The position numbers were made by a program, and so were the translations under genes. A stretch of DNA of 39,230 nucleotides from an uncultured Bacilli bacterium (GTDB lineage Bacteria; Bacillota_I; Bacilli_A; RF39; UBA660): NCBI GenBank assembly GCA_947600335.1, contig CANQGB010000009.1, forward strand, positions 1 to 39,230. Direction: 5' to 3'. Positions 5,315-34,934 of the stretch are shown here, one piece after another; the first letter of the stretch is position 1, and each line of letters opens with the position of its first letter. The notes under the pieces are model-generated. The model worked only from the letters and a program-made list of their open reading frames with translations. It did no database searches and was not told where the DNA came from.

Positions 5315-5326
5315 GTAGTAGTAACT

Positions 5327-5442: not shown

Positions 5443-5483
5443 AAGAACATTGGCTTTTACTTGAAAAACGATGTTCTTTTTTT
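5443..5483 (+). terminator. Rho-independent terminator after tRNA-Pro
   Basis: AAGAACAT (5443-5450) pairs with ATGTTCTT (5471-5478) and is followed by a T run to 5483. The loop is long (20 nt) and the stem GC-poor, but the position directly after the tRNA fits. Confidence 0.65.
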
Positions 5484-7037: not shown

Positions 7038-7060
7038 AATTATTTTTTATTAGTTTTCTT
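7032..7060. terminator. Possible weak terminator between convergent genes
   Basis: AACTAA (7032-7037, overlapping the stop of the PcfJ-like gene) pairs with TTAGTT (7050-7055), followed by TTCTTT. The stem is short and AT-rich. It lies exactly where the plus-strand gene and the minus-strand gene converge with two bases between them. Confidence 0.3.
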
Positions 7061-7522: not shown

Positions 7523-7632
7523 CTTCATCACCTTTTTATCTATTTTAATCATCTTACCCCAAAATGCAATAAAAAGTAGTTATTCGTAAATAAAAAAAAT
7601 ATCGTTTTACATATCTTATAGTAGGAGGTAAA

Positions 7633-8427: not shown

Positions 8428-8440
8428 GTTGTCTTTTTTT
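8416..8440 (+). terminator. Terminator overlapping the end of the M23 gene
   Basis: AAGACAA (8416-8422) pairs with TTGTCTT (8429-8435), followed by a run of T to 8440. The left arm lies inside the last sense codons and the TAA stop (8425-8427) is in the loop. Confidence 0.8.
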
Positions 8441-8467
8441 GATATTTTGCCTTTTTTATAGTATACT
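8439..8467 (+). promoter_or_regulatory. Promoter of the phosphoketolase gene
   Basis: TTGATA (8439-8444) and TATACT (8462-8467) are separated by exactly 17 bases, a good sigma-A promoter. It starts within the T run of the preceding terminator. The leader is about 17 bases long and ends in an AGGG ribosome site eight bases before ATG 8491. Confidence 0.75.
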
Positions 8468-8490
8468 AATTTTATGATAGGGTTGATAAT

Positions 8491-10857: not shown

Positions 10858-10885
10858 AAAAATGTAGGTTGGGCTACATTTTTTT
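10857..10885. terminator. Bidirectional terminator between phosphoketolase and cold-shock genes
   Basis: AATGTAG (10861-10867) pairs with CTACATT (10874-10880) around a six-base GTTGGG loop, with A runs on the left and T runs on the right, so it can work on both strands. It fills the gap between the two convergent genes. Confidence 0.85.
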
Positions 10886-11096
10886 ACTTGGTATTAGAGC
10901 TAATTTTTTTCGTATTAACGGCTTGATAACCTTTCGCAGTTTCGATAAGGTCAAATTCCACTTCATCATCTTTTTTCAAAGTTTTATAACCATCTTGAAT
11001 AATTGAAGAATAATGAACGAATACATCTTCATCTTCAGTATATTTAATGAATCCATATCCTTTTTCATCTTTAAACCACTTAACTCTACTTCGCAT
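10884..11096 (-). CDS. Cold-shock protein (CspA family)
   Basis: The 70-residue protein is a single cold-shock domain, a small OB-fold that binds single-stranded RNA and DNA and melts RNA secondary structure. The two RNA-binding motifs are present: KGYGFIKY (RNP1 type) and VFVHYSSI (RNP2 type), preceded by the typical VKWF. Length is normal (CspA proteins are 65-75 residues). GAGGTG lies about nine bases before the ATG and an extended -10 promoter lies upstream, so it is expressed independently of the Agr-like pair that precedes it on the same strand. No long cold-shock type 5' leader is seen: only about 25 bases separate the predicted start of transcription from the ATG. Confidence 0.95.
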   Translation of the reverse strand: MRSRVKWFKDEKGYGFIKYTEDEDVFVHYSSIIQDGYKTLKKDDEVEFDLIETAKGYQAVNTKKISSNTK

Positions 11097-11126
11097 AAAA
11101 TATGCACCTCACTTTCAACTGTTTAC

Positions 11127-11135
11127 ATGATACCA
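11127..11135 (-). promoter_or_regulatory. Extended -10 promoter of the cold-shock gene
   Basis: Read on the minus strand, the bases are TGgTATCAT, an extended -10 element with no clear -35. The start point would fall near 11120. Confidence 0.55.
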
Positions 11136-11194
11136 TATAAATTTAAGAAGTTTGTCGAACGAGGTATAAAGTGTCATTTTTGAATGATTTTTGG

Positions 11195-12445
11195 TTACTG
11201 AATATTAAAACCAATTTTTTGATAAAAGAAATTACATTTAATATCGGTATCTTTAGTTATTTTTGCATTTTTATTAATCGTATCATCAACTAAATATAAG
11301 CCCATGCCGCGATTTTTACCTTTAGTACTATAACCTTTTTCATGAATATGATTTAATTCAATAAACTTATAAGTATTAGCAATTAAAAAAATTAATTGAT
11401 TGTTCTCTAAATAAATATGAATAGCTATCATTTTATCTTGACTCTCCAAAGCCGCCTCTAGAGCATTATCGGTAATAATTCCAATAATCGTATATAAATC
11501 TTTTTTATCTTTCGGTGAAAAACTCTTATCGTTCAATAAATTAATATTATCGCCAACATATATTTCCGTGGTAATATTTTGTTCTTGCATTTTTAAAATT
11601 TTATAATTTATTAAACCTTTTAATCCGGGAATCGGAATGTTTTTTAAATCTGTTAGCCAATGCCATTCATTTGCATTTTTTTCATTTAAAATTAAGGAGA
11701 TATAATTGGTTAGTTCTTCATTATCTTTAACTAAGCTTTTAATAATTATTAGTTGATTTTTTATTTCATGAATTCTACTTTTGTATTTAGTTAATAAATC
11801 TTCAATATTTTTGTAATATTCTAAGGTGTTTTGAAAATTATCTAAAAGTAAATGCTGTTTTGATTTCTCGACTAATAAAATAAAACCCAAATTAAAAATA
11901 ATGAATGTGGTTAATAATGATAATATATTAGAAGAATTAATTAGGAAAAGATATTTACTAAAGAAAATAAAAATTAAATAACTATTGATAAATAAGAGGT
12001 TTTGAAATGTACTATGATTAGTAAAATTTGGTTTAGCAATAATCCTTTGAATGTTATCTTGCAAGGTAAATGTCAAAATAATAGTTAACAAACTAGTCAT
12101 TAAATACATTAAATTTTGACTAGGCAAGGGGATTTTTAAAAGATATAAAGTTATAACTAATAAAATTTCAAATAAAAATCGAATTGTATAAGTTAGATAA
12201 ATTAGGAATATAATTTCGCTTTTTGGTTTAGCAACTTCATAACAACAAAACGTAATAATTAAAAATAAATAAAAAATCATTTCCATAAATATATTAGCAT
12301 AAGTTAAATTAATAAAATGGAGTAAACCAAAAAAGATAATTGGTAAAATTTTATGTTGTTTATGTTTAAAGATTAAAGAAATAATTATATAGTTATACAA
12401 AGCCATCCATAATCCCGTAAATAAATTAAATGTATTTAAAACCAT
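11195..12445 (-). CDS. AgrC-like membrane sensor histidine kinase (GHKL type)
   Basis: This 416-residue protein has about six hydrophobic segments in its first 200 residues and a cytoplasmic kinase module. The phosphoacceptor His is in SRIHEIKNQ at about residue 226, followed by the Agr/CitA-type GHKL ATPase domain with N box ITDNALEAA and G box STKGKNRGMGLYLV. AgrC-type kinases sense peptide pheromones and phosphorylate a LytTR regulator. ATG 12445 is preferred because AAAGGAGG ends six bases before it; ATG 12451 overlaps that site. The frame overlaps the end of the regulator gene by 20 bases, so the two are translationally coupled. No AgrB protease or AgrD-like pro-peptide is seen nearby, so the ligand is unknown. 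Confidence 0.88.
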   Translation of the reverse strand: MVLNTFNLFTGLWMALYNYIIISLIFKHKQHKILPIIFFGLLHFINLTYANIFMEMIFYLFLIITFCCYEVAKPKSEIIFLIYLTYTIRFLFEILLVITLYLLKIPLPSQNLMYLMTSLLTIILTFTLQDNIQRIIAKPNFTNHSTFQNLLFINSYLIFIFFSKYLFLINSSNILSLLTTFIIFNLGFILLVEKSKQHLLLDNFQNTLEYYKNIEDLLTKYKSRIHEIKNQLIIIKSLVKDNEELTNYISLILNEKNANEWHWLTDLKNIPIPGLKGLINYKILKMQEQNITTEIYVGDNINLLNDKSFSPKDKKDLYTIIGIITDNALEAALESQDKMIAIHIYLENNQLIFLIANTYKFIELNHIHEKGYSTKGKNRGMGLYLVDDTINKNAKITKDTDIKCNFFYQKIGFNIQ

Positions 12446-15140: not shown

Positions 15141-16298
15141 ATGAAAGATATAATAATCATCGGCGCTAGAGGCTATCAAAATAACTATGGGGGATGGGAA
15201 ACTTTTGTTACTAACTTAATTGCTAATTATCCTAAAGGTAAAGCCAAGTTTCATGTTCCTGAACTAACTACTGATAAAACGCAAAAAAATAAAATCATCG
15301 TAAAAGATAATGTTATATGCCCCCAATTATATTCTCCCCAAGTTGGTTTTGTAACCATGTTTATTTATGCTATTAAAGCTTTAGCCAAAATGAAGAAATA
15401 TTTAAAAGACAATAATTTAAAAAATCCTATCATTTACATTTTAGGTTGTCGCATGGGTCCAATTTATCGATTCTTAGTTAAGCCTTTAAAAAAACAACAT
15501 GCGCAAATTTATATGAATCCCGATGGACTGGAATGGAAAAGAGAAAAGTGGGCTTGGTGGATAAAACAATGTTTTAAAATATCAGAAAGGTCTATGGTAA
15601 AACATAGTGATGTTATAATCTGTGATTCGATGGCCATTAAAAATTATATTGATACTCATTATCAAAAATATCATAAACCATCGGCTTTTATTGCTTATGG
15701 AGCCTATTTAAATCCTGACATCAAAAAAGATAACCAAATTAAAGCTATTTTAAAAGGTAATGGTATTCAAGAAAAAAATTACTATTTAATAGTTGGCCGT
15801 TTTGTTCCCGAAAATAATTATGAATTAATCATTAAAGAATTTATGAAAAGCAATACGTCAAAAGATTTAGTAATTGTTAGCAATGTTGAGGAAAATAAAT
15901 TTTATCAAGAACTTCAAACCAAAACTAACTTTCCTAGTGATAAAAGAATTAAATTCATCGGCAGTGTTTATGAGAAAAATACTTTGAATTACTTAAGAAA
16001 AAATGCTTATGCCTATATTCATGGACATTCAGCTGGAGGAACTAATCCTAGTTTACTAGAAGCTTTATCCTTAACCGATATTAATATTTTATATAATGCA
16101 GTTTACAATGTAGAAGTGGCTACTTTCTCAGCCCTTTACTTTAGTAAAAGAGAAAATGATTTAAAAAAGATAATTGAAAAAGCTGAACAATTTGATACTA
16201 AAACCATAACTAAATATAGCAAGTTGGCTAAAGAAAGAATCAAAAGTGCTTATACATGGAAAATAGTTGTTGATAAATATCAAAAGTTGTGGAAATAG
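15141..16298 (+). CDS. DUF1972/GT4 glycosyltransferase (RgpA/Cps2T-like rhamnosyltransferase)
   Basis: The 385-residue GT-B protein begins with a DUF1972 domain, recognised by IIGARGYQNNYGGWETFV, IYILGCRMGP and MNPDGLEWKREKW. It continues with a GT4 nucleotide-sugar domain with YLIVGRFVPENNYE and HSAGGTNPSLLEAL (EX7E region). This architecture is that of streptococcal RgpA and pneumococcal Cps2T, rhamnosyltransferases acting early on undecaprenyl-linked intermediates. AAAGGAGG precedes the ATG. It sits between a GT2 and the ABC exporter, as in rgp clusters. No dTDP-rhamnose synthesis genes are in the window, so rhamnose as donor sugar is an inference. Confidence 0.88.
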   Translation: MKDIIIIGARGYQNNYGGWETFVTNLIANYPKGKAKFHVPELTTDKTQKNKIIVKDNVICPQLYSPQVGFVTMFIYAIKALAKMKKYLKDNNLKNPIIYILGCRMGPIYRFLVKPLKKQHAQIYMNPDGLEWKREKWAWWIKQCFKISERSMVKHSDVIICDSMAIKNYIDTHYQKYHKPSAFIAYGAYLNPDIKKDNQIKAILKGNGIQEKNYYLIVGRFVPENNYELIIKEFMKSNTSKDLVIVSNVEENKFYQELQTKTNFPSDKRIKFIGSVYEKNTLNYLRKNAYAYIHGHSAGGTNPSLLEALSLTDINILYNAVYNVEVATFSALYFSKRENDLKKIIEKAEQFDTKTITKYSKLAKERIKSAYTWKIVVDKYQKLWK

Positions 16299-16312
16299 AA
16301 AAGAGGTAAAAA

Positions 16313-17041
16313 ATGGAAAATGCTATAGAAATCAAAAAAGTCACCAAAAGTTTTAAACTTTTTTATGACAAACCTAGTACTTTAAAAGAACGCCTAGTTT
16401 TTTGGAATCATAAAAAAGCTGATGTTCGCGTTGTCTTAGATAATATTGATCTAACAATCAAAAAAGGGGAAACTGTTGCTCTAATTGGAGTCAATGGTAG
16501 TGGTAAGTCAACTTTGTTAAAATTAATGACCAAAATAATTTATCCTACCAGTGGTAAAATTAAAACATACGGTAAATTAACCTCGCTCTTAGAATTAGGT
16601 GCTGGCTTTCACCCTGACTTTACTGGTCGAGAAAATATTTATTTTAATGCTTCTATTTTTGGCTTAACTAAAAAAGAAATCGATAAAAGAATAGATGATA
16701 TTATTGAATTTTCTGAACTAGGTGAGTTTATTGAAAGTCCGGTTCGAACATATTCATCAGGTATGTACATGCGCTTAGCTTTTTCAGTCGCCATCAATGT
16801 CGATGCCGAAATTCTTTTAATAGATGAAATACTAGCCGTAGGTGACCAACACTTTCAAGATAAATGCTTTAATAAATTAATGGAACTAAAAAATAGCGAT
16901 AAAACGATAGTTATTGTTACTCATGACTTAGATTCCGTCAAAAATTTATGTTCTCGCGCAATTTGGCTATATGATGGTAAAATAAAAATGGATGGTAAGC
17001 CAAATAAAGTTGTTGAAGAATACTTAAAGGTGTGTGGTTAA
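16313..17041 (+). CDS. Polysaccharide ABC exporter, ATP-binding protein (Wzt/RgpD/TagH-like)
   Basis: This 242-residue ATPase has Walker A GVNGSGKST, the Q-loop region LLELGAGFHPDFTGREN typical of polysaccharide exporters, signature TYSSGMYMRLAFS, Walker B ILLIDEILAVGD and the H-loop IVTHD. The N-terminal VTKSFKLFYDKPSTLKERL is also diagnostic of the Wzt/TagH branch. It lacks the extra C-terminal carbohydrate-binding domain seen in some Wzt proteins, so recognition of a chain terminus by that route is unlikely. It works with the permease encoded directly downstream to move lipid-linked polysaccharide across the membrane. Gene order here is ATPase then permease, the reverse of streptococcal rgpC-rgpD. 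Confidence 0.93.
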   Translation: MENAIEIKKVTKSFKLFYDKPSTLKERLVFWNHKKADVRVVLDNIDLTIKKGETVALIGVNGSGKSTLLKLMTKIIYPTSGKIKTYGKLTSLLELGAGFHPDFTGRENIYFNASIFGLTKKEIDKRIDDIIEFSELGEFIESPVRTYSSGMYMRLAFSVAINVDAEILLIDEILAVGDQHFQDKCFNKLMELKNSDKTIVIVTHDLDSVKNLCSRAIWLYDGKIKMDGKPNKVVEEYLKVCG

Positions 17042-17042
17042 A

Positions 17043-17810
17043 ATGTTTAAAAATATCTATAACTATCGGCAATTATTAAAAAGTAATATCAAAAAAGAAA
17101 TTAGAGGAAAGTATAAAGGTTCTTTTTTAGGTATTTTATGGTCATTTCTTAACCCTTTATTAATGGCTTGCATATACGCAATTGTTTTTCCTTTTATTTT
17201 AAAAAATACTCAAGAACATTATGTAACTTATATTATAATTGGAATAATACCATGGAATTTTTTTACAACTGCCATTTTTCAAGGAACATTTTGTATCGTT
17301 GGTAATGGTTCAATTATTAAAAAAGTTTATTTTCCCCGAGAAATACTGCCCTTATCTATAGTTATTAGTGGCGCTGTCAATTTTTTAATATCTTTGCCTA
17401 TTATAATTATATTTGTTTTATGTAGTGGGTTAGGTTTATCACATAATCTAATTTATGTTCCTTTAGTTTTATTAGTTCAATGTTTATTACAATTAGGAAT
17501 TGTTTTGATTACTTGTTCAATAAATGTTTATATTCGTGATGCCGAATACATTATCCAATTTTTAGTAAATATGTTATTTTATGCTACCCCAATAATATAT
17601 GATGCCACTTTGTTTCCTGAAAAATTTAGATGGATTTTAAATTTAAATCCTATGACTCCTATTATAAATGGTTATCGTAATATTTTCTATTATCATGCTC
17701 ATCCTAATTTAACTCAATTACTATTTTTGTTAATAATATGTACGATACTTTGCTTTGTTGGTTATAAAATATTTAATAAATTAGAAAAAGGCTTTGCCGA
17801 GGAAGTATAA
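17043..17810 (+). CDS. Polysaccharide ABC exporter, permease (Wzm/RgpC/TagG-like)
   Basis: The 255-residue membrane protein of the ABC-2 type has six hydrophobic segments and the family hallmarks REIRGKYKGSFLGILWSFLN near the N-terminus and LNPMTPIINGYRN before the last helices. It forms the channel for undecaprenyl-linked polysaccharide together with the preceding ATPase. ATG 17043 follows the ATPase stop by one base. A GTG at 17034 in the same frame would overlap the ATPase by eight bases but is only three bases from the AAAGG site. Its stop TAA overlaps the next ATG by one base (TAATG). Confidence 0.92.
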   Translation: MFKNIYNYRQLLKSNIKKEIRGKYKGSFLGILWSFLNPLLMACIYAIVFPFILKNTQEHYVTYIIIGIIPWNFFTTAIFQGTFCIVGNGSIIKKVYFPREILPLSIVISGAVNFLISLPIIIIFVLCSGLGLSHNLIYVPLVLLVQCLLQLGIVLITCSINVYIRDAEYIIQFLVNMLFYATPIIYDATLFPEKFRWILNLNPMTPIINGYRNIFYYHAHPNLTQLLFLLIICTILCFVGYKIFNKLEKGFAEEV

Positions 17811-22779: not shown

Positions 22780-24621
22780 ATGAAAAAAGTTTTAAGAAAA
22801 ATATATGCCAAATTTCCTTTAAGTCAAAACTTTAAAGAAAAGATAAGAAAAGTATTAAAAAATGATTCTAAAGAAATTTTAAATAGACAAGCCTTTTTTC
22901 ATCATTTAGAAAAGGCCAAAGTAATTTCATTCGACATTTTTGATACTTTAATTTCAAGAGTAGTTTATAATCCAGATGACATATTTTACTTAATAGAAGA
23001 ACAATTAAATATTCCTAATTTTATAGAGAAACGTAAAAAAGCCGAAAATTATGCTCGGGAACAATTAAAAAAAGATGTTAATTTAGATGAGATTTACCAT
23101 GCTTACACCGAATTATATGGTGAAAAATCCCAAGAAATTAAAGATTTAGAAATTAATTTAGAACTAGAATTATGCATTCCTCGTAAAGATATGTTAGATA
23201 TTTATAATAAACTAAAAGCTGACAATAAAAAAATAATTTTAACTAGTGACATGTATTTACCTAAAAAAGTTATTATCAAAATGTTAGCTAAATGTGGTTA
23301 TAAAGATTTTGATACTCTTTATCTTTCTAATGAATTAAATAAACGAAAAGATACTCAAGAAATTTGGCCATACTTAATCCAAAAATATGGTAAAAATATA
23401 GTTCATGTTGGTGATAACATACAATCTGATTATATAAATCCTCAAAATTTTGGAATAAAAGCTCTTAAAATTGATAGTCCTAGAGAATCATTTTCCAAAA
23501 CGGAAATGTTTAATTATGTCCAAGAATTTATTAATAATAAAAACGTAAGTGATTCTTTATATTTAGGATTTTTTGTCAACAAGATAGTTTTTAATTCGCC
23601 GTTTACTACTTTAAAAATTGACACGATAGAAGATTTTAGTTATGTCTTTCATGGTTTTATAATTAATTCTTTTTTAGAATATATTTGTACCAATAATAAA
23701 AATGAAGAAATTCTTTTTTTAGCTAGAGAAGGGTATAATCTTCAAAAATTATATAAATATTATTGTCAAAAAAATGATCTTCCAGAAATAGATAATAAAT
23801 ATTTTTTAGCTTCTCGCAAATCTACTATGACAGCAATTATAAAAAATGTAAATGAATTGGAAAAAATTTTAGATAATGATTATCAGGGAACTATTAAAGA
23901 TTATTTCAGCCAAATATTAGATATTGATTATAATGGTGAAAATTTTGATATAAAACTACCTGATCAAAAAGAAAAAATTCTTCCTATAATAAAAAATTAT
24001 TCTAAAGTAATTTTACCTAAATATAAAATTGAAAAAGAAAATTATTTAAATTATATTCAAAAAACTGTCGGAGAAATTAAAAATAATAAAGTATCAATAG
24101 TTGACTTAGGATATTCAGGAACGATTCAAAAACAATTATCTGAAATGACTAAAAAGGAATTTACTGGTTACTATTTAGTTAATTCATCTAAAGTAAAAAA
24201 ATATTCTGAAAAATCCCAATTAAATTTTTTATTTAATATAAATGATAATAAAGAATATGAAAAAATATATAATTATTCTTTAATTTTAGAATATTTTTTA
24301 ACGGCTCCTCATGGTCAATTAATAAGATTTACAAAAGTAAAGAATAAAGTTGAGCCAGTTTTCAATAATGAAACTATATCTCAAAATAAGCAAGAAACAA
24401 TTAATAAAATAAATATAAGTGTTAAGAATTGTATCGATGATTTTGCTAAATTATCAAGTATTTATAAGATAAAAACGAGTAAAAACTTAATTTGTCGCTT
24501 ATATACGTGTATGATAGAATCAGGAATAATTACCCGAAATGTCAAAGATCAGTTTATGTTTATGGATGCTTTTTGTAGCAATGAAGAGCGTAACGTTTTT
24601 AAAATTATAAGTAGATATTAA
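22780..24621 (+). CDS. HAD-superfamily hydrolase with long C-terminal domain (COG5610-like)
   Basis: Of the 613 residues, about 45-240 form a HAD phosphohydrolase domain: motif I SFDIFDTLISR (nucleophile D in DxD), motif II LTSDMYL near residue 154, and motif IV HVGDNIQSDY near residue 209. The remaining 370 residues belong to no family I can name with certainty; EEILFLAREGYNLQKLY and VSIVDLGYSGTIQKQL are conserved-looking and also occur in predicted HAD proteins of polysaccharide loci (COG5610). It has a basic N-terminus (KKVLRKIYAKF) that may touch the membrane. Given its place between a WsaF-like transferase and GtrA, a phosphatase or phosphotransferase acting on a glycan or lipid intermediate is possible, but this is inference. 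Confidence 0.75.
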   Translation: MKKVLRKIYAKFPLSQNFKEKIRKVLKNDSKEILNRQAFFHHLEKAKVISFDIFDTLISRVVYNPDDIFYLIEEQLNIPNFIEKRKKAENYAREQLKKDVNLDEIYHAYTELYGEKSQEIKDLEINLELELCIPRKDMLDIYNKLKADNKKIILTSDMYLPKKVIIKMLAKCGYKDFDTLYLSNELNKRKDTQEIWPYLIQKYGKNIVHVGDNIQSDYINPQNFGIKALKIDSPRESFSKTEMFNYVQEFINNKNVSDSLYLGFFVNKIVFNSPFTTLKIDTIEDFSYVFHGFIINSFLEYICTNNKNEEILFLAREGYNLQKLYKYYCQKNDLPEIDNKYFLASRKSTMTAIIKNVNELEKILDNDYQGTIKDYFSQILDIDYNGENFDIKLPDQKEKILPIIKNYSKVILPKYKIEKENYLNYIQKTVGEIKNNKVSIVDLGYSGTIQKQLSEMTKKEFTGYYLVNSSKVKKYSEKSQLNFLFNINDNKEYEKIYNYSLILEYFLTAPHGQLIRFTKVKNKVEPVFNNETISQNKQETINKINISVKNCIDDFAKLSSIYKIKTSKNLICRLYTCMIESGIITRNVKDQFMFMDAFCSNEERNVFKIISRY

Positions 24622-24643: not shown

Positions 24644-25024
24644 ATGAGTATAATAAAAAAATATCAAAAAGAAATAAGATTTTTAATCATTGGTGGTATA
24701 TCTACAACAATTGATTTTATCTTTTATATGTTATTTAGTACAAAAATTGATATATCTATATCCAAATTATTATCTATGACTATCGCTACTATTTTTTCTT
24801 ATATTTTTAATAAAAATTGGACTTTTTCTGTCAAAGAAAAATCTCATGCAATATTAGTAATAAAATATATAATATGTCAATTATTAAATATTTTATGTAA
24901 TACATTAACCAACACTATAGTTTTCAAGATAACTGGATTAAAAGTAGTTTCTTTTATTGCCGCTACAGGTATAGCTATGATTGTTAATTTTTTATTACAA
25001 AATAAAGTAGTATTTAAAAAATAA
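24644..25024 (+). CDS. GtrA family membrane protein
   Basis: The 126-residue protein has four hydrophobic helices and matches the GtrA/DPMS family: EIRFLIIGGISTTIDFIFY at the start, FSYIFNKNWTFS in the middle loop and NFLLQNKVVFKK at the C-terminus. GtrA-like proteins are thought to flip polyprenyl-phosphate-linked sugars or help the synthase do so. Here it stands before two GT-C-like genes and a DPM1-type GT2, the expected partners. Its stop codon lies just before a possible internal promoter. Confidence 0.9.
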   Translation: MSIIKKYQKEIRFLIIGGISTTIDFIFYMLFSTKIDISISKLLSMTIATIFSYIFNKNWTFSVKEKSHAILVIKYIICQLLNILCNTLTNTIVFKITGLKVVSFIAATGIAMIVNFLLQNKVVFKK

Positions 25025-25054: not shown

Positions 25055-25086
25055 TATTATAACTAAAACAAGAGGTGAATGTCATA

Positions 25087-26463
25087 ATGAAAGTATTAAC
25101 AAAAATAAAAGATTCGCGAATATTTAATAATAATTTAGTCCTATTAAGTTTAACATTTGTATTTTTTATAATTATATTAATTGCTCTTAATCCTGCAATT
25201 TTAAAAGCACCATATCTGTTCATGGAAGATGGATGGGTTTTCATTAAAGAATATTATAAATATGGCTTGGGCTCATTTAAACTAACTTACGGAGGCTATT
25301 TTGATACTTTATCCAGGATATTTGCCATGATTGCTGTTAGTTTAGCCAAATTAACTAATAGTGCTGTAGTACTTGCTAACACAATTAAATGGTTATCTAT
25401 CTTTTTTTCAGCTTTCGTTGTAACTTATTTTACTTCTAATAATTTTGAAAAAATAATTAAAAGTAGATTTAAAAGAATAATAATTTCTGGTCTAACAATT
25501 ATACTAATTTCCAATTTTGCATGGCTATTATATAATGGAGTAGCAATTCATTGGTGGTGTGGTTTACTAATTTTTTATGTATCCCTAAATTTATTACAAG
25601 ATAAAATGCCATCGTATGTTATGCTGCCAATCATATTAATATCAATTATCTCAACTGCTTCATCTATGATATTAGGCTTCGCTTTAATGTATTATGTATT
25701 TAAGAAAATTGATTTTAAAAAGCCTTTGAATACTATTAAAAATATTGGCAAAAACAGCTTAATTAAATTAATATTAATGGGACTCTTTTTATTATTCCAA
25801 GCCTATGCAATTTTGTTTATAACTGATGTTGAAACGTTAATTAAAATAGATTTATCATTTAATCATTTGCTTGAGGTTATTAAATATTCATTACTCCTTT
25901 TAATTTCTAGTATTAATTTTGTTTTTGGTACTGATACGTTTTTAGCCCTTAATTCTAGTAAATTAAATATTTTAGCAGGCTCAATTCTTTGGATAACAGT
26001 TATTTGTTTGGCTATTAAAACCAAAACATTAAAATACTGTTTATTAGTTATACTTGATATTTTCTTGTTATATTTTATGATTAATTTTAAAAAAGTTGAG
26101 TTTATTGAGTTTTACAATGAAATCATGAGTTATGCTTATCAAACATGGTATCATTCTTTGCCAGCTAGTTTTGTATTTATAGGAATAACAATTATTTTAT
26201 TTCACCTAGGCTTAAAAAGTAATGCCTTTAAAAGCATTGAAATTACATTTTTAATTTTTGCTGCTTTCTTTTTCATTCGAAATATAAATCATCCAGAATT
26301 AGAAACAAGTCAAAAAATTTTAGAAATTGAACCTTTTGTTGATTTTAATAATAATATATATGCTCATGTACCTATTAGTCCTCCTCATTTGAATGTAAGT
26401 GTTACAATTCCTGTTTCTGAAGATTATTGTTTAGAAAATACTTGCTATGACAGCATAAATTAG
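25087..26463 (+). CDS. GT-C-like polytopic membrane protein, copy 1
   Basis: This 458-residue protein has about ten hydrophobic helices. The first outer loop (residues about 40-75) carries an acidic motif MEDGWVF followed by YGGYFDTLSRIFAM, a layout typical of GT-C enzymes that use polyprenyl-phosphate sugars, though I did not recognise a named family. The C-terminus is soluble and contains two Cys (ENTCYDS). It starts at ATG 25087 behind AGAGGTGA; a GTG at 25075 overlaps that site. The following gene is a close paralogue; the two share a perfectly identical 135-base block. In context it probably transfers a sugar from the carrier made by the downstream GT2 and flipped by GtrA. Confidence 0.65.
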   Translation: MKVLTKIKDSRIFNNNLVLLSLTFVFFIIILIALNPAILKAPYLFMEDGWVFIKEYYKYGLGSFKLTYGGYFDTLSRIFAMIAVSLAKLTNSAVVLANTIKWLSIFFSAFVVTYFTSNNFEKIIKSRFKRIIISGLTIILISNFAWLLYNGVAIHWWCGLLIFYVSLNLLQDKMPSYVMLPIILISIISTASSMILGFALMYYVFKKIDFKKPLNTIKNIGKNSLIKLILMGLFLLFQAYAILFITDVETLIKIDLSFNHLLEVIKYSLLLLISSINFVFGTDTFLALNSSKLNILAGSILWITVICLAIKTKTLKYCLLVILDIFLLYFMINFKKVEFIEFYNEIMSYAYQTWYHSLPASFVFIGITIILFHLGLKSNAFKSIEITFLIFAAFFFIRNINHPELETSQKILEIEPFVDFNNNIYAHVPISPPHLNVSVTIPVSEDYCLENTCYDSIN

Positions 26464-26480: not shown

Positions 26481-27878
26481 ATGAATCGGATAAAACAATT
26501 AAAAATATTCAAAAATAATTTTGTACTATTAAGTTTAACTTTTATATTTTTTACAATTTTATTAATTGCAATTAACCCTAAAATTATAAAGGTACCTTAT
26601 ATTTTCGGTGAAGATGGTTGGGTCTTTACCATTGAGTATATGAAATATGGTTTAAAATCATTTGCTATGACTTATGGAGGCTATTTTGATACTTTATCAA
26701 GAATATTTGCCATGATTGCTGTTAGTTTAGCCAAATTAACTAATAGTGCTGTAGTACTTGCTAACACAATTAAATGGTTATCTATCTTTTTTTCAGCTTT
26801 CGTTGTAACTTATTTTACTTCTAATAATTTTGAAAAATTTATTAAAAGTAGATTTAAAAGAATAATAGTTTCTAGTCTTACAATCATGCTAATCTCAAAC
26901 TTTTCATGGCTATTATATAATGGAGTAGCAATCCACTGGTGGTGTGGTTTACTAATCTTTTATGTATCCTTAAATTTATTACAAGATAAAATGCCATCGT
27001 ATGCTATACTGCCAATCATATTAATATCAATTATCTCAACTGCTTCATCTATGATATTAGGCTTTGCTTTAATGTATTATGTATTTAAGAAAGTCGATTT
27101 TAAAAAGCCTTTGAATACTATTAAAAACATTGGCAAGACCAACTTAATAAAATTAATATTAATGGGACTATTCTTATTATTCCAAGCCTATGCAATTTTG
27201 TTTATCACCGATGTTACAACCTTAGTTAAAGTAGATTTATCTTTAACTCGTCTGGTAAGCATAACTTATCATTCAATATTACTTTTAATTTCTAGCATCA
27301 ACTTAATTTTTGGTACAGAAACATTTTTAACTTTAAATTCTCTTGGGTTAAATTTATTAGTTGGTTCAATCCTTTGGATGGCAGTTATTTACTTAGCAAC
27401 TAAAACCAAAACGCTAAAATATTGTTTGTTAATTATAATAGATATTGTATTTTTATACTTTATGATAATGTTTAAAAGAACTGAATTTATCGCATATTAT
27501 CAAGAAATAACTTCAGGGTATAGTTATCAAGTATGGTATCATGCCTTACCTGCAATCTTTATCTTTTTAACAATCATGTTTTCTTTTAATCAAATAAAAA
27601 ATATATCATCAAGTTATAAGTCATTAGAAATTTGCTTTTTATGCATTACAGCTATGTTTTTCATTCAAAATATAAATCACCCCGAATTAGAAACAAGTCA
27701 AAAAATTTCAGAAATTGAACCATTTGTAGATTTTAATAATAATCAATATGCTTCTGTTCAGATAAGTCCCGACTTCCAAAAGGTATATACAGAAATACCA
27801 GTATCAAAAAGTTATTGCCAAGAACATGAATGTCATAGTGAAATATACGAATATAGAAGTGAGGTAGAAGTAAAATGA
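26481..27878 (+). CDS. GT-C-like polytopic membrane protein, copy 2
   Basis: This 465-residue paralogue of the preceding protein has the same topology, the acidic loop motif GEDGWVF, YGGYFDTLSRIFAM and the shared HPELETSQKI segment near the end. The N-terminal 40 residues and several later stretches differ clearly from copy 1, while the stretch from about residue 75 to 120 is identical at DNA level. Both copies keep an open frame and the acidic motif, so both are probably active, perhaps with different acceptors or linkages. The tail has two Cys (YCQEHECHSE), as in copy 1. It overlaps the next gene by four bases (ATGA). Confidence 0.65.
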   Translation: MNRIKQLKIFKNNFVLLSLTFIFFTILLIAINPKIIKVPYIFGEDGWVFTIEYMKYGLKSFAMTYGGYFDTLSRIFAMIAVSLAKLTNSAVVLANTIKWLSIFFSAFVVTYFTSNNFEKFIKSRFKRIIVSSLTIMLISNFSWLLYNGVAIHWWCGLLIFYVSLNLLQDKMPSYAILPIILISIISTASSMILGFALMYYVFKKVDFKKPLNTIKNIGKTNLIKLILMGLFLLFQAYAILFITDVTTLVKVDLSLTRLVSITYHSILLLISSINLIFGTETFLTLNSLGLNLLVGSILWMAVIYLATKTKTLKYCLLIIIDIVFLYFMIMFKRTEFIAYYQEITSGYSYQVWYHALPAIFIFLTIMFSFNQIKNISSSYKSLEICFLCITAMFFIQNINHPELETSQKISEIEPFVDFNNNQYASVQISPDFQKVYTEIPVSKSYCQEHECHSEIYEYRSEVEVK

Positions 27879-28582
27879 AATATTCTGTAGTAATTCCATG
27901 TTATAATGAAAGTGAAAATCTAGAAAATATGGTTGCCACATTAAAAAAATTTGAAAAGTATGATAACACCGAATTTATTTTGGTTGAAAATGGCTCCAAA
28001 GACAATAGTAAAGAAGTTTTTGAAAAAATAAAATTGGATAAGACCCACTTTAAAAAAGTTTATGTTAAAACAAATAAAGGCTATGGCTATGGTCTTCAAC
28101 AAGGTTTAAAACAAGCGACTGGTGATTATGTTGGTTGGCTTCATGCCGATTTACAAGTAGAGCCTAAAGAAATGGTCAAACTTATAGAGTTTATTGAAAG
28201 TCATGATAATAATGAACATTATTTTTTAAAAGGCCGGAGAAAAAATAGAAGTTTATTTGATTGCTTTTTTACTGGCAGTATGACTATTTTTGAATTTTTA
28301 CTTTTTCATCGCCGAATGAATGATATTGGCGCTATCCCTGTATTATTCAATCGCGAATTGTTAACTAATATGGAAAAAGCCCCGTATGATTTCTCCATTG
28401 AGTTATTCACTTATTATCAAGCGAAAAAAGAGAAATATATTGTTAAAAGATTTCCCGTAATTCTTAAAAAACGTGAAAAAGGGGAATCATCTTGGAATAA
28501 AGGGCTGAAATCTAAAATAAAACAGAGTATAATAATTATGAAAGATAGTATTAAAATTAGAAAAGGAGAACAAGTAAAATGA
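27875..28582 (+). CDS. Polyprenyl-phosphate GT2 glycosyltransferase (DPM1/GtrB-like)
   Basis: This 235-residue GT-A enzyme begins YSVVIPCYNESENL, followed by FILVENGSKDNS, KGYGYGLQQGLKQATGDYV and the metal site HADLQ near residue 90. This is the pattern of dolichyl/polyprenyl-phosphate sugar synthases (DPM1, GtrB, ArnC). It lacks the C-terminal membrane helices some of these have, so it probably relies on GtrA or the GT-C partners for membrane contact. It overlaps both neighbours by four bases. It likely makes the polyprenyl-phosphate sugar used by the two GT-C-like proteins. Confidence 0.85.
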   Translation: MKYSVVIPCYNESENLENMVATLKKFEKYDNTEFILVENGSKDNSKEVFEKIKLDKTHFKKVYVKTNKGYGYGLQQGLKQATGDYVGWLHADLQVEPKEMVKLIEFIESHDNNEHYFLKGRRKNRSLFDCFFTGSMTIFEFLLFHRRMNDIGAIPVLFNRELLTNMEKAPYDFSIELFTYYQAKKEKYIVKRFPVILKKREKGESSWNKGLKSKIKQSIIIMKDSIKIRKGEQVK

Positions 28583-29604
28583 AAATATTAATAACGGGAG
28601 CAGCCGGTTTTATCGGCTCACAATTAGCTTATAGACTATGGAAAGAGAATAATGAATTAATTTTAATCGATAATTTCTCTTATGGAAAAAAGGATAATTT
28701 AATCTTTAAAGACCATGATTTTACTAATGAATTAATTAATATGGATATTAGAGATAAAATAAAAATGGAAGAAATATTCCAAAACAATAAAATCGACTAT
28801 GTATATAATATAGCTGGAATAGCACCATTGCCAGACTGTCAATCAAATCCCTGCGAAGCCATTGATGTAAACGTTAATGGATTAGTTAATATTTTGGAAA
28901 ATAGTAGAAAATATGGTGTCAAAAAAGTTATTCAAGCTAGTACTAATGCTATGTACGAAAATGAAACAGAATTTCCTACCAAAGAAAATAAATTTGAATT
29001 ACCTACATTAATTTATCCTAATACTAAATATTGTGCTGAAAGATTTGCTCAATCATTTTGTGATACTTATGGTATGAATGTGACATGTATAAGATTTGCC
29101 AATGTTTATGGTCCTCATATTGATTGCTTAAGAAAACAACCTCCATTTGTTGCCTATATGATAAGAGAATTATTTTACAATCGGGTTCCAATTTTTCATT
29201 CAGATGGAACTCAAAGAAGAGACTATATTTATGTAGATGATTTAATTGATTTAGCAATTGCTGTCCAACAAGGAGAAGGATTTGATTGTGTTAACTGTTC
29301 ATCAATGAAAAATTATTCTGTTAATGAAATGTATGAAATTGCTTCTAAAATAATGAATAAAAATATTAAAGCCGAATATGCCAGCGATGCTCATTATTGG
29401 GAAAAATATCCTAGTTTATTTGAAGGCGAATATAAAATCAAAGATGAAATATTAAAAAATGAAATAAATAAATATTCTTTATGTGATAATAATTATGCTA
29501 AAGAAAAATATAATTGGGTACCTAAAATTGATATAGAAGAAGGATTAAAAAGAGTAATTGAAAACGAGTGTGAACTTTTACAAAAATTAGAGAAAGAAAA
29601 ATAG
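28579..29604 (+). CDS. NAD-dependent sugar-nucleotide epimerase/dehydratase (extended SDR)
   Basis: The 341-residue protein is an extended short-chain dehydrogenase. The N-terminal Rossmann motif is ITGAAGFIGS, the catalytic YxxxK is seen as YPNTK near residue 149, and GTQRRDYIYVDD near residue 214 is typical of UDP-glucose 4-epimerase-like enzymes. An insert of about 20 residues near 275-295 with HYWEKYPS is unusual for simple epimerases. It probably converts a nucleotide sugar used by this operon. The substrate cannot be read from the sequence. It overlaps the preceding GT2 gene by four bases. Confidence 0.88.
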   Translation: MKILITGAAGFIGSQLAYRLWKENNELILIDNFSYGKKDNLIFKDHDFTNELINMDIRDKIKMEEIFQNNKIDYVYNIAGIAPLPDCQSNPCEAIDVNVNGLVNILENSRKYGVKKVIQASTNAMYENETEFPTKENKFELPTLIYPNTKYCAERFAQSFCDTYGMNVTCIRFANVYGPHIDCLRKQPPFVAYMIRELFYNRVPIFHSDGTQRRDYIYVDDLIDLAIAVQQGEGFDCVNCSSMKNYSVNEMYEIASKIMNKNIKAEYASDAHYWEKYPSLFEGEYKIKDEILKNEINKYSLCDNNYAKEKYNWVPKIDIEEGLKRVIENECELLQKLEKEK

Positions 29605-29624: not shown

Positions 29625-30368
29625 ATGTCAAAAGTTCATTTAATAATGCCCATGGGTGGAGCAGGATCTAGATTTTTTAAAAACGGATTTATTATGCCTA
29701 AACCTTTAATTGAAATTAATAATAAACCATTTTTATATTGGTCTACTATTTCACTAACCAATTTTATGGAAGTAGAAGATATCACTTTTGTAGTTTTACA
29801 ACAACATATCGATGAATTTAATATAGATAAAATTATCAAAAAATATTTTCCATCATCAAAAATAGTTGTGATCCCTCAAATTTTAAATGGGGCAGTATTA
29901 ACCTGTATGGAAGGAGCAAAAAACATAGCAGATGATTTACCTATAATCTTCAATGATTGTGATCATATTTTTATAGCTAATTCCTTTTATGAATTTTGTA
30001 AGCAAAAAGATAACTCTAAAATTGATGGTGCCTTACTGACATTTATTTCTAATGATCCTAAGTATTCATATTTAGAACTTAATAAAGAAAATAATGTCAT
30101 AAGAACTGTTGAAAAACAAGCGATTAGTGAACATGCTATTTGTGGTGCTTATTATTTTAAAAATAAAGAAATTTTTCTGCAAAATGCTTTAGAATATCTA
30201 GAAAATTGTAGTTATAACGAATATTATGTAAGCGGTGTTTATAACATTATGGCTAATCATAATATGAAAATTGTTAATTTTGACTGTGATGAACATGTTC
30301 CTTTTGGTACCCCAGAAGAATATTATGAGGCCGAAAAAAATGACATTTTTAAAAGGGTTTTAAAATGA
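29625..30368 (+). CDS. Sugar-phosphate nucleotidyltransferase
   Basis: The 247-residue protein is a nucleotidyltransferase of the sugar-1-phosphate/LicC type. The NTP-binding signature is MPMGGAGSRF followed by the Lys of MPKPLIEI, with FNDCDHIF as the metal-binding acidic site near residue 106. The C-terminal PFGTPEEYYEAE is typical for the group. It activates a phosphorylated sugar or alcohol with a nucleotide. AAGGATGA lies six bases before the ATG. Next to it is an APH-type kinase domain that could make the phosphorylated substrate. Similar pairs occur in capsule loci (for example heptose and phosphoramidate pathways), but which nucleotide and substrate are used here is unknown. Confidence 0.85.
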   Translation: MSKVHLIMPMGGAGSRFFKNGFIMPKPLIEINNKPFLYWSTISLTNFMEVEDITFVVLQQHIDEFNIDKIIKKYFPSSKIVVIPQILNGAVLTCMEGAKNIADDLPIIFNDCDHIFIANSFYEFCKQKDNSKIDGALLTFISNDPKYSYLELNKENNVIRTVEKQAISEHAICGAYYFKNKEIFLQNALEYLENCSYNEYYVSGVYNIMANHNMKIVNFDCDEHVPFGTPEEYYEAEKNDIFKRVLK

Positions 30369-32236
30369 TAATTGTATATCTTGGCCTATCTATTTTACTT
30401 TTAATCGCCGCTAATATCTTTAAAATTTTAAGATTATCGCAATTTATTGAACCATACGAAAAACCAAATTCAAAAAGATTGATTCAAGCTCTTTCAATAG
30501 GAAATATTCTAAATTTGGTTCTTCCTTTTCGTTTAGGTAATTTATTTAGGATTTATCTTCCAGGTAAATATATGAAAAATGGCATCTCATTTTCCTTTGC
30601 CACAATCATCGTTGAAATATTTATAGATTTTATTATTGTTTCCTTAATTTATATAATGTTTTTTGCTCTAGGGTTTGATACACTTAATAACATATTATTT
30701 TACTTATCATTTTTAATTGGTACAACAGCCTTAATACTATTATTAACAAAATTAAAGCCTTTAATAAAAAAAGCAATATTAAAAGTAGCATCTATTTTCA
30801 ATAAATCTATTGAATTAAAAATTTTAAAATTATCTTGGTTTACTATTATATCATTTGAAAATATTTTGAAAAAAGTAAATAAAAGAAAACTATTAATTTA
30901 TTCTGTAATTGTTTGGAGTTTAAATATTTTATCTTGTTATCTTTTATCATTTACTTTAAATGGAGGCAATTTATATTCTTGCTTTGATATGTTTTTTTCT
31001 AGAAGCGGAATAACTTCAAATTTCTTATTTTTATTTAAAAATATAGATTATAAAATAATATTTGCTTATTATATATTAAGTGCAATTATCTTATTTTTAA
31101 TGTCTTTTGTACTTAAATTTAAAGAAAAATCTCAAACATATATTGAATTGTTGCCTCAAAGTAATGTAAACGATCGTTTACAATTTTTAGAACTTTATTT
31201 TAACAATTATAGTCGGGAATATTTTAATGATTATTTAAAATTAAATAGTGATGTTGCCGTTTTGGAAGATTATTCAGCTGGAAGTAATGCCACAACTATC
31301 TTATGCTCAAAAAATGATGAAACTTTTTATCGTAAGTATGCTTTTGGAAAAGATGCCGATAAATTAAAAAAACAAATTGACTGGATACATAAGTATGAAA
31401 ATAAAATATCCTTAACTAAAATTATATATGAATATTATGAAGATGGTATCTGTTCTTATGATATGACTTTTAATCCCAATGCCGTAACTTGTTTTAATTA
31501 TGTTCATACCAATTCATTTAAAGAATCATGGTCTAAAATTGTTTCTGCTTTAGAAGAATTAGAAAAATTACATAATCTAGAAAAAAGTCAAAAAGCTGAT
31601 AAAAAAACTATTGAGCAATACATAAATGATAAAGTATTAAAAAATATTGAGAAAATTGAGAAATGTACTCCAATTAAAAATATTTTAAACTACGATTATG
31701 TTTATATTAATGGTCAAAAATATCATAATTTAAATTATTATAAAAAGTACTTAAACTTTAACTATTTATATAAGATTTTTAAAAATGATTTATATACTGA
31801 TATCCATGGTGATTTTACAATTGAAAATATTATTTGTCTAAAAGATCGTAACAAGACTAAACAAGAAATTTATCTTATTGATCCCAACATAGGTAATATA
31901 CATAATTCACCTTATTTAGATTATGCTAAATTGTTTCAATCTTTACATGGTGGTTATGAATTTTTAATGAATACTAAAAATGTATCATTTCATAATAATC
32001 AAATAGAATTTTTCTTTACAAAGTCATCTACTTATAATAAACTTTTTGACAATTTAGTTGATTACTTAAATACCAAATTTGGTCAAGAAGGTTTAAAAAG
32101 TATATTTTTTCATGAAATAATTCATTGGCTTCGGTTAATGCCATATAAAATTGAAAAAGATTCTGAGAGAGCAATGTTATTTTATGCGGGATTATTAATG
32201 GTATGCCAAGATATAGAAAAGAGATTTAATTTATGA
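30365..32236 (+). CDS. YbhN-like flippase domain fused to an APH/choline-kinase-like domain
   Basis: The 623-residue protein has a membrane domain (about residues 1-265) and a soluble kinase-like domain (about 290-623). The first matches the YbhN/lysylphosphatidylglycerol-synthase membrane family: LSIGNILNLVLPFRLGNLFR, then FATIIVEIFIDFI. The second has the aminoglycoside-phosphotransferase catalytic loop DIHGDFTIEN near residue 480 and the metal-binding YLIDPN near residue 505, so catalytic and metal residues are intact. A membrane lipid flippase joined to a small-molecule kinase is unusual. It is coupled by ATGA overlaps to the nucleotidyltransferase before it and the HAD phosphatase after it. 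It may phosphorylate a lipid-linked or imported substrate; this is inference. Confidence 0.8.
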   Translation: MIIVYLGLSILLLIAANIFKILRLSQFIEPYEKPNSKRLIQALSIGNILNLVLPFRLGNLFRIYLPGKYMKNGISFSFATIIVEIFIDFIIVSLIYIMFFALGFDTLNNILFYLSFLIGTTALILLLTKLKPLIKKAILKVASIFNKSIELKILKLSWFTIISFENILKKVNKRKLLIYSVIVWSLNILSCYLLSFTLNGGNLYSCFDMFFSRSGITSNFLFLFKNIDYKIIFAYYILSAIILFLMSFVLKFKEKSQTYIELLPQSNVNDRLQFLELYFNNYSREYFNDYLKLNSDVAVLEDYSAGSNATTILCSKNDETFYRKYAFGKDADKLKKQIDWIHKYENKISLTKIIYEYYEDGICSYDMTFNPNAVTCFNYVHTNSFKESWSKIVSALEELEKLHNLEKSQKADKKTIEQYINDKVLKNIEKIEKCTPIKNILNYDYVYINGQKYHNLNYYKKYLNFNYLYKIFKNDLYTDIHGDFTIENIICLKDRNKTKQEIYLIDPNIGNIHNSPYLDYAKLFQSLHGGYEFLMNTKNVSFHNNQIEFFFTKSSTYNKLFDNLVDYLNTKFGQEGLKSIFFHEIIHWLRLMPYKIEKDSERAMLFYAGLLMVCQDIEKRFNL

Positions 32237-32781
32237 AATTAGCAATATTTGATATGGATGGTACGCTTTATAATACAAATGACGTAAATTATTATGCCTA
32301 TAATGAAGCATTATCAAAATATAATATTAATTTAGATTATCATTTTTTTTGCCAATATTGTAATGGTCGTTCTTATAAAGTTTTTTTGCCTCAAATAGTT
32401 GAAAATCAAGGCATAATTGAAGAGATTCACAATAATAAAAAAACTTTATATTCTAAATACTTAGATAAAGTAAAATTAAATGAGCATTTATTTAATATAA
32501 TTAATTTGATCAAAAAAGAATATAAAATAGCTTTGGTTACTACAGCATCCCGAAAAAATACATTAGATATTTTAGAATATACTAATAAAATAAATCTTTT
32601 TGATATTATTCTAACAGCTGATGAAATAACAAATCCTAAACCTGATCCAGAAGGATTTTTGCTAGCCATGAATAAAATTAACGCTCTACCAGAAGAAACT
32701 ATAATATTTGAAGATTCCGATGTTGGAATAGAAGCTGCTGTAAACACCAAAGCAACTGTCTTTAAAATTAATAATTTTTAA
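32233..32781 (+). CDS. HAD-IA family phosphatase (beta-phosphoglucomutase/GmhB-like context)
   Basis: The 182-residue HAD hydrolase has motif I IFDMDGTLYNT, motif II TTASRKN, motif III Lys in NPKPDPEGF and motif IV IFEDSDVGIEAA. The cap is a small helical C1 type. It is slightly short for subfamily IA (usually 200-230 residues), and ends soon after motif IV, but no frameshift is evident. It overlaps the flippase-kinase gene by four bases and is the last gene of the operon. It could be the phosphatase step of an activation route made of kinase, phosphatase and nucleotidyltransferase, as in GDP-heptose synthesis, or a sugar mutase. Confidence 0.85.
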   Translation: MKLAIFDMDGTLYNTNDVNYYAYNEALSKYNINLDYHFFCQYCNGRSYKVFLPQIVENQGIIEEIHNNKKTLYSKYLDKVKLNEHLFNIINLIKKEYKIALVTTASRKNTLDILEYTNKINLFDIILTADEITNPKPDPEGFLLAMNKINALPEETIIFEDSDVGIEAAVNTKATVFKINNF

Positions 32782-32922: not shown

Positions 32923-33660
32923 ATGGAAATAAGTAAAATAAAAAAAGCTTTAATTGAACAAAAAAATATGAATTTATCAGGAAACTTATATCATAAAACT
33001 CAAATAGATTTTGCTTATAATAACAACCATATTGAAGGTTCAACTATAACACCAGATGAAACAGCCAGCATTTATGATACAGGAACAATTTTAACTAGCA
33101 ATGATAAAGTTATTGTTTTAAAAGATGCTACGGAAACTAAAAATCATTTTACCTTGTTTAAATATATGTTAGACACTATTGATGATAATCTTACTGAAGA
33201 TATGATTAAAAAATTTCATTTTATATTGAAAGATGGAACTTTAAGTGATAGTGAAAAAGAATGGTTTAATGTTGGCGAATATAAACAAAAGAAAAACTTT
33301 GTCGGGAATATTACTACTTCAATTCCTAAAGATGTAGCTAAAGATATGAAAAATCTACTTCAGTGGTATAATCAAATACCTAAAAAAAATTTAGAAGATA
33401 TAATAGAATTTCATGTTAGATTCGAACATATTCATCCTTTTCAAGATGGTAATGGTCGAGTAGGGAGAATGATAATGTTTAGAGAATGCCTACATAATGA
33501 TATGATGCCATTCTACATTGAAGATAGAAATAAAGATTTTTATATTAGAGGTATTAAAGAATACCAAACCAATAATGAAAAAGGTTATTTAATAGATACT
33601 TGTTTAAATAGTCAAGACAATTATGAAAAACTAGCAAAATATTTTTTAGAAGATGAATAG
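32923..33660 (+). CDS. Fic family protein (putative AMP transferase)
   Basis: The 245-residue protein contains the Fic catalytic motif HPFQDGNGRVGR with H171, N177 and R179, so it should be active in transferring AMP (or another phosphate-containing group) to a target hydroxyl. An internal inhibitory helix is suggested by NNNHIEGS (E38-G39), near the N-terminus as in class II Fic proteins, but the usual Ser/Thr four residues before the Glu is Asn here. The protein is short and lacks the extra DNA-binding domain of many Fic proteins. It stands alone with its own -10 box. A truncated antitoxin-like frame follows 39 bases later on the same strand. The target is unknown. Confidence 0.92.
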   Translation: MEISKIKKALIEQKNMNLSGNLYHKTQIDFAYNNNHIEGSTITPDETASIYDTGTILTSNDKVIVLKDATETKNHFTLFKYMLDTIDDNLTEDMIKKFHFILKDGTLSDSEKEWFNVGEYKQKKNFVGNITTSIPKDVAKDMKNLLQWYNQIPKKNLEDIIEFHVRFEHIHPFQDGNGRVGRMIMFRECLHNDMMPFYIEDRNKDFYIRGIKEYQTNNEKGYLIDTCLNSQDNYEKLAKYFLEDE

Positions 33661-33998: not shown

Positions 33999-34934
33999 AT
34001 GTCAAAAAATAAAAGTACCATTGCCGTTTTAATACCTTGTTATAATGAATCAAAAACTATCAAAAAGGTTGTCGAAGATTACCACAAAGCTTTACCAGAA
34101 GCCGATATCTATGTCTATGATAATAATTCCAAAGATAATACCGATAAAATTGCCAAAGAAGCTGGCGCGATTGTTAAATATGAATATCGTCAAGGAAAAG
34201 GTAATGTTATTCGAACTATGTTTCGGGAAATTGATGCTGATTGTTATTTAATGATTGATGGTGATGATACATATCCGGCTGAAAATGCTCGGGAAATGTG
34301 TGATTTAGTTTTAAAAGGTAAGGCTGACATGGTAATTGGTGATCGATTATCTAGTACTTATTTTACAGAAAATAAACGTCCATTTCATAATTTTGGTAAC
34401 AAGATAGTTCGGTTATTAATAAATCGTTTATTCCATAATAATATTAAAGATATAATGACTGGCTATCGGGCTTTTAGTTATGAATTTGTTAAAGGCTTTC
34501 CTATATTATCTAAAGGATTTGAAATCGAAACCGAAATGACTATTCATGCTGTTGATAAAAATTTTAAAATTGTAGAAATTCCTGTAACTTATCGGGACCG
34601 ACCAAAGGGTAGTGTTTCCAAACTTAATACTTATTCTGATGGTTTTAAAGTTTTAAAAACGATAGCTATCTTATTTAAAGAATATAAACCTATGAGCTTC
34701 TTTGGTATTATCTCAGCCATTTTAACTTTAATTTCCTTAGTTTTAATTATTCCTATTTTCTTTGAATACTTCGAAACCAAACTCGTTTTAAGATTTCCCA
34801 CTTTAATAGTTGGTTGTTTTACTCTTTTAACCGCTATCTTATCAATAATATGTGGTATTATCTTGCAAGTAATTGTCAAAAAAGAACGCCAAAATTACGA
34901 ATTATATTTAAATCTTTTGCATAAAAATGACTAA
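33999..34934 (+). CDS. Polyprenyl-phosphate GT2 glycosyltransferase with two C-terminal membrane helices
   Basis: This 311-residue protein has an N-terminal GT-A domain with AVLIPCYNESKTIKKVV, IYVYDNNSKDNT, RQGKGNVIRTMF and the metal site MIDGDDTYP near residue 88. Two hydrophobic helices follow after about residue 230. The catalytic region also has MTGYRAFSYEFVKGFP and YRDRPKGSVSKLNTYSDG, the pattern of DPM1/GtrB-type synthases that put a sugar on polyprenyl phosphate. It is a monocistronic second member of this class in the window; the other (27875-28582) has no membrane helices. It could supply the GT-C-like protein at 3444-5237 or another locus. Sugar unknown. Confidence 0.9.
   Translation: MSKNKSTIAVLIPCYNESKTIKKVVEDYHKALPEADIYVYDNNSKDNTDKIAKEAGAIVKYEYRQGKGNVIRTMFREIDADCYLMIDGDDTYPAENAREMCDLVLKGKADMVIGDRLSSTYFTENKRPFHNFGNKIVRLLINRLFHNNIKDIMTGYRAFSYEFVKGFPILSKGFEIETEMTIHAVDKNFKIVEIPVTYRDRPKGSVSKLNTYSDGFKVLKTIAILFKEYKPMSFFGIISAILTLISLVLIIPIFFEYFETKLVLRFPTLIVGCFTLLTAILSIICGIILQVIVKKERQNYELYLNLLHKND

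Follow-up and report, generated by a model that had tools for sequence, protein, structure and literature searches.

The window, that is the whole stretch of 39,230 nucleotides analyzed here, contains a surface-polysaccharide locus, with glycosyltransferases and an ABC-2 exporter located upstream of the gene under study (Table 1). This gene (30365-32236) is a single intact ORF of 623 residues with an ATG start, and shares 4-bp ATGA overlaps with both its upstream and downstream neighbors. Its product joins a membrane half to a kinase half in one reading frame, as an earlier note on this DNA had proposed, and the motifs LPFRLGNLFR, HGDFTIEN, and IDPN fall at residues 53-62, 481-488, and 505-508, respectively. 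The GT2 protein of the cassette resembles dolichol-phosphate mannose synthase (PDB 5mlz, 3.5e-12) and ArnC (PDB 9hwj, 4e-12), while the nearest solved relative of the HAD protein is the phosphorylated-carbohydrate phosphatase TM_1254.

Table 1. Features of the surface-polysaccharide locus and of the two domains of the fusion protein
Feature	Position	Strand	Basis
DUF1972/GT1 glycosyltransferase and ABC-2 polysaccharide exporter (ATPase, permease)	15141..17810	+	Pfam
GtrA/DPMS transmembrane protein	24644..25024	+	PF04138, 68 bits vs cut-off 26.1
Polytopic membrane protein, candidate GT-C glycosyltransferase, tandem copy 1	25075..26463	+	No Pfam match; candidate from locus position
Polytopic membrane protein, candidate GT-C glycosyltransferase, tandem copy 2	26481..27878	+	No Pfam match; candidate from locus position
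GT2, DPM/ArnC polyprenyl-phosphate-sugar synthase type	27875..28582	+	PDB matches
NAD-dependent sugar epimerase/dehydratase	28579..29604	+	PF01370
Sugar-1-phosphate nucleotidyltransferase (NTP_transferase), 4-bp overlap with fusion start	29625..30368	+	PF00483, 39.5 bits; triad context
Fusion, N-terminal membrane domain, LPG_synthase_TM (PF03706), MprF-flippase-like, ~6 predicted membrane helices	30365..31150	+	Pfam, VIA, hydrophobic segments
Fusion, C-terminal APH-fold kinase domain (RK lysine, HGDxTxEN, IDPN), predicted cytoplasmic	31154..32233	+	AlphaFold, Foldseek, VIA, invariant residues
HAD-IA sugar phosphatase (HAD_2), 4-bp overlap with fusion stop	32233..32781	+	PF13419, 108 bits

The two polytopic membrane proteins are regarded as candidate GT-C enzymes on the grounds of topology and position. 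They have a long near-identical middle in common and differ in their tails, possibly as an outcome of gene conversion, and a related contig from an uncultured Bacilli bacterium (L002) likewise carries two such copies (2424-3824 and 4061-5455). L002 begins with a protein similar to the one encoded at 22780-24621 of the window, a protein of 613 residues whose N-terminal region resembles HAD-IA and whose C-terminal half is devoid of any clear Pfam match. A Fic-domain protein (32923-33660) is placed between the cassette and a second GT2 (33999-34934), a close relative of which directly follows the cassette in another uncultured Bacilli contig (L003).

Pfam analysis assigns residues 5-196 of the fusion to LPG_synthase_TM (PF03706; E 2.1e-11, 44.3 bits for a curated cut-off of 33.4), and three relatives (L005, L011, and L060) also pass this cut-off. 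The match spans positions 35-231 of the 302 in the profile and misses the first ~34, and the membrane half seems, judging from this alignment, to be somewhat truncated relative to the domain. Structure prediction, suggested in the earlier note for both domains, yields an MprF-like N-terminal half and an APH-fold C-terminal half. VIA comparison of residues 1-252 with the MprF flippase domain (PDB 7duw) reports a Z-score of 12.0 over 223 residues at 4.4 Å, covering MprF residues 66-320, for a full-length model whose mean pLDDT is only 65, the transmembrane part lying mostly at 65-89. The proposed YbhN/LPG-synthase-type nature of this half is thereby borne out by both profile and predicted fold. 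In MprF the flippase domain has an aminoacyl transferase as its partner, whereas in the fusion it seems shorter at the N-terminus and is followed by a kinase. The fusion is the sole PF03706 protein of the source genome.

The kinase half does not return any Pfam match with APH (PF01636), and the relative L011 reaches 19.9 bits, below the cut-off of 23.2. PDB sequence searches with the whole protein and with the kinase profile report chance matches only, mostly repebodies. Since the kinase N-lobe was poor in the first full-length AlphaFold model, this half was refolded alone with 18 sequences, resulting in a model with a pLDDT of 89 and a pTM of 0.86. Its top Foldseek match is APH(3')-Ia (1.4e-6), and VIA reports hits with APH(2'')-IIIa (PDB 3tdw; Z 18.6, 3.4 Å, 273 aligned residues), a glucosamine kinase (PDB 6hwl; Z 18.6, 5.4 Å, 307 aligned), and a maltokinase (PDB 5jy7; Z 17.4, 4.4 Å, 290 aligned). 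Sugar kinases and APH are thus the top fold neighbors, while choline kinases follow at a Z-score of about 15.8 and LicA is also among the fold matches. Invariant positions in the 18 kinases are, as numbered there, R60 K61, H218 G219 D220, N225, and I242 D243, so that the catalytic set typical of APH and choline kinases (ATP lysine, HGDxxxxN, and metal-binding ID) is complete. The complete kinase fold claimed from the motifs is therefore upheld, as a predicted fold with intact catalytic residues.

Seven distinct full-length members of the fusion have been identified, including one on an alphaproteobacterial plasmid. They occur in uncultured Bacilli (L002, about 70-71% identity to the fusion, and L003, about 46-47%, both for the best segment), in Paenibacillus (L004, 45%), on a Pseudochrobactrum plasmid (L005, about 25-26%), and in a human-gut contig (L011); one genome of the same genus carries two copies, one identical to that of L002 (L007) and a second one (L008/L060). 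A chance or assembly origin of the fusion can be dismissed because it recurs at full length at 70, 47, 45, and 26% identity, as well as in L060/L008 and L011. The window copy is the only fusion among the 395 genomes of a class survey and the 392 of a phylum survey, and in a survey of 60 close relatives the fusion occurs in two genomes; this rarity fits an accessory polysaccharide gene moving between lineages. The seven members form one group in the kinase tree with a support that is not strong (87/86), and the membrane-fusion label requires 1 change on this tree as compared with 6.3 in shuffles. A single fusion event is likely, since the membrane-fused kinases group together and a single change accounts for the label.

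All seven fusion loci share the same cassette order, GT2, NTP transferase, fusion, and HAD phosphatase, into which an epimerase is inserted between GT2 and NTP transferase in three of them (the window, L002, and L011). GtrA lies upstream in five of the seven, and an EamA/SMR-type protein is found downstream in L004. A DPM/ArnC-type GT2 adjoins every membrane-fused kinase (7/7) and none of the others (0/21; Fisher p 8e-7), an association that is phylogenetically non-independent as the membrane-fused kinases group together (87/86). Because the membrane domain occurs only with a GT2 of the Und-P-sugar type, it probably seats the kinase at a lipid-linked sugar, or works on this sugar. Among the substrates listed in the earlier note, the lipid-linked sugar is hence favored as the context of the protein, by this GT2 at all seven loci and by GtrA at five. 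Seating next to the Und-P-sugar synthase is the role that we favor for the membrane half, and flippase activity is the leading rival. According to the latter, the LPG_synthase_TM domain would itself flip the Und-P-sugar, GtrA being, instead of a flippase, the membrane anchor of GT2 as in archaeal DPM synthase, and a single protein would both begin sugar activation and transport the completed lipid-linked sugar. The MprF flippase fold of the predicted model, the strict link with the DPM/ArnC-type GT2, the lack of another PF03706 protein in the genome, and the inclusion of the DPMS transmembrane domain in the GtrA family are all consistent with this proposal. However, most loci possess a separate flippase candidate (GtrA in five, the EamA/SMR-type protein in L004), and the membrane half misses the first positions of the profile, which makes flipping by the fusion a tentative alternative, clearly less probable than seating.

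The kinase has two constant partners well beyond the membrane-fused form. Both a nucleotidyltransferase and a phosphatase are located beside the kinase, or fused to it, for 26 of the 28 distinct kinases in the tree, from phages, Mollicutes, capsule plasmids, and Bacilli; the two exceptions possess a fused HAD and have no NTP gene within about 4 kb. The family was gathered mainly by kinase searches that disregard neighbors, and the count becomes 24/26 when two enteric plasmids found via the NTP gene, and therefore biased, are removed; the flanks of the compared loci are of unequal length. When only the membrane-fused sequences served as input, pattern-based scans of viruses found nothing, and adding the phage G gp311-like kinases gave access to the wider family. 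In Bacillus phage G, the kinase gp311 is accompanied by gp310 (HAD) and gp309 (NTP), and the NTP, HAD, and kinase genes are consecutive in three other phages (L018-L020). Viral contigs encode single NTP::HAD::kinase polypeptides (L029, L034, L035, and L043, as well as L046 by HMM), HAD::kinase (L033 and L040), and NTP::kinase (L036). An EcbF-type HAD, an NTP transferase, and an NTP-like::kinase protein occur together in one Bacilli genome and in the two enteric plasmids, while Mollicutes have either an NTP transferase, an EcbF-type HAD, and the kinase, or an NTP transferase with a histidine phosphatase::kinase. In one Mollicute (L057 5880-7382, minus strand, code 4), the histidine phosphatase (PF00300) is fused to the kinase, and a GT2 and an NTP transferase adjoin. 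The type of phosphatase varies (HAD-IA, EcbF-type HAD, or histidine phosphatase), while its partnership with the kinase is constant. Linkage and fusion that recur so widely argue strongly for a shared pathway, in line with the coupling of the kinase to a nucleotidyltransferase and a HAD phosphatase that had been noted at the window locus. The halves of the fusion do not occur apart in unrelated roles, which would have spoken against the earlier note: the stand-alone kinases retain the NTP and phosphatase partners of the fusion. In phages, the kinase family is listed as 'unknown function' (PHROG 21938), and Pfam mostly misses the family.

Two phage loci provide clues to the substrate. The DNA of phage RB69 bears arabinose (PMC6024577), and its ORF055c-ORF051c module has been proposed to provide UDP-arabinose (PMC6024577, PMC8056088), similarities to APH and to phosphatases having been remarked by later authors (PMC8056088). 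ORF055c, annotated as arabinose 5-phosphate isomerase, has a SIS domain, and the kinase relative ORF052c is placed between the NTP gene ORF053c and ORF051c. ORF052c missed the E 1e-4 threshold of the pooled HMM search and was accepted after a targeted search (40 bits) and a Foldseek fold match (2.6e-9). ORF051c (L061 3709-4095, minus strand), annotated as a phosphoheptose isomerase, is scored at 78 bits by a model of EcbF-type HAD proteins from which it was left out, and looks by sequence like an EcbF-type HAD phosphatase. The RB69 module resembles the window cassette in its NTP transferase, related kinase, and phosphatase, while its product would be destined for DNA and its kinase is devoid of the membrane fusion. 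In cyanophage S-SKS1 (L062 3493-4917), an NTP transferase domain is fused to 3,4-dihydroxy-2-butanone 4-phosphate synthase (DHBP synthase), and adjoins the kinase and an EcbF-type HAD. Both contexts suggest that a small sugar with a terminal phosphate is what enters the triad, which may hold for the bacterial loci as well; no sugar isomerase was identified in these bacterial loci, including among the window proteins scanned.

These data bear on two further substrates put forward in the earlier note. The membrane domain might import a free sugar or a small alcohol such as choline, which the kinase would trap by phosphorylation before its activation, much as LicB/LicA/LicC do for choline; the fold matches indeed include choline kinase and LicA, and the kinase has a nucleotidyltransferase at its side just as LicA has LicC. 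Yet the near-constant phosphatase would be superfluous for simple salvage, RB69 ties the triad to a sugar isomerase, and LicD does not return any Pfam match in the 19 window proteins scanned (13665-34934). Choline kinases carry HND, whereas the motif is HGD in the present family. Salvage is thus improbable, and choline or ethanolamine is weakened as a substrate. Alternatively, the fusion to a lipid-handling domain could mean that the kinase acts within the membrane on a lipid, either polyprenol or a lipid-linked sugar, but the related phage kinases stand alone without any membrane domain, and the presence of a nucleotidyltransferase as partner implies that the sugar phosphate is small and soluble. 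Such a lipid kinase is very improbable, and polyprenol loses ground accordingly as the kinase substrate. Choline/ethanolamine activation and a polyprenol kinase were both set aside on this evidence.

The whole is probably best explained by a membrane-seated sugar 1-kinase taking part in sugar activation for an exported polysaccharide. The starting compound would be a sugar phosphorylated away from C1, to which the kinase domain would add a phosphate at the anomeric C1 while the neighboring HAD phosphatase would remove the other one, the pair standing in for a phosphosugar mutase. The nucleotidyltransferase would convert the resulting sugar 1-phosphate to an NDP-sugar. The sugar would then be transferred to undecaprenyl phosphate by the adjacent GT2 together with GtrA, and added outside the cell to the exported polysaccharide by a membrane protein of GT-C-like type. 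The LPG_synthase_TM domain would keep the kinase at the membrane, next to the enzymes handling the Und-P-sugar, and may contribute to the movement of this lipid-linked sugar. A bolder version, in which one kinase-coupled flippase activates and exports one sugar and the triad is a general, so far unrecognised activation route for sugars without a mutase, serving DNA or other glycosylation in phages and surface glycans in bacteria, appears unlikely.

The logic of this proposal is established in other systems. In MurNAc recycling by Pseudomonas, the HAD_2 phosphatase MupP, the anomeric sugar kinase AmgK, and the nucleotidyltransferase MurU together turn a sugar 6-phosphate into an NDP-sugar (PMC5371407). 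A similar unit of phosphatase, APH-type kinase, and nucleotidyltransferase is present in the window, in a different setting, a surface-polysaccharide locus, and its HAD protein scores 26.7 bits with the MupP model (cut-off 359), which does not indicate orthology for that protein. To our knowledge, AmgK is devoid of a membrane domain. A shift of the phosphate to C1 followed by nucleotide addition is also established for the GDP-D-glycero-D-manno-heptose route, where isomerase (GmhA), C1 kinase (HddA), phosphatase (GmhB), and nucleotidyltransferase (HddC) act in series (PMC10680097). The RB69 set is comparable; the kinase precedes the phosphatase in the heptose route, while either order could apply in the window. 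As far as we know, HddA is not of the APH fold. Downstream, the three-component Und-P-sugar glycosylation systems of wall-polysaccharide loci (CsbB/GtcA/YfhO type; GacI-L) comprise a DPM/ArnC-type GT2, GtrA, and a polytopic membrane protein (PMC8035078), to which the window adds a dedicated kinase/HAD/NTP sugar-activating unit with a membrane-fused kinase.

The fusion is real, well conserved, and, as far as our searches reached, uncharacterised, and is made of known parts that probably follow a known logic. Our literature searches on the fusion, LPG_synthase_TM, and EcbF/BcbF found nothing useful, and biochemistry was not found for any member of the kinase family. The new result is the partnership of the kinase with the nucleotidyltransferase and the phosphatase, in a family that spans capsule loci, wall-polysaccharide loci, Mollicutes, and many phages. 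A role for this family would explain dispersed sugar-activation genes, including the proposed RB69 arabinose route. The membrane-fused form would offer a direct handle on LPG_synthase_TM function in glycan assembly, because the matching lipid-linked sugar should come from the same operon.

Lastly, one protein (9435-11417) of an E. coli plasmid (L013, NZ_CP145712.1) combines a polytopic membrane domain with a kinase whose fold is of the P-loop uridine-kinase/PRK type, within a cassette (also 6001-9369 and 11336-12163) comprising a double NTP transferase, GtrA, a GT2 of the window-type family, and a HAD protein. This membrane-kinase fusion is apparently a convergent counterpart of that of the window.
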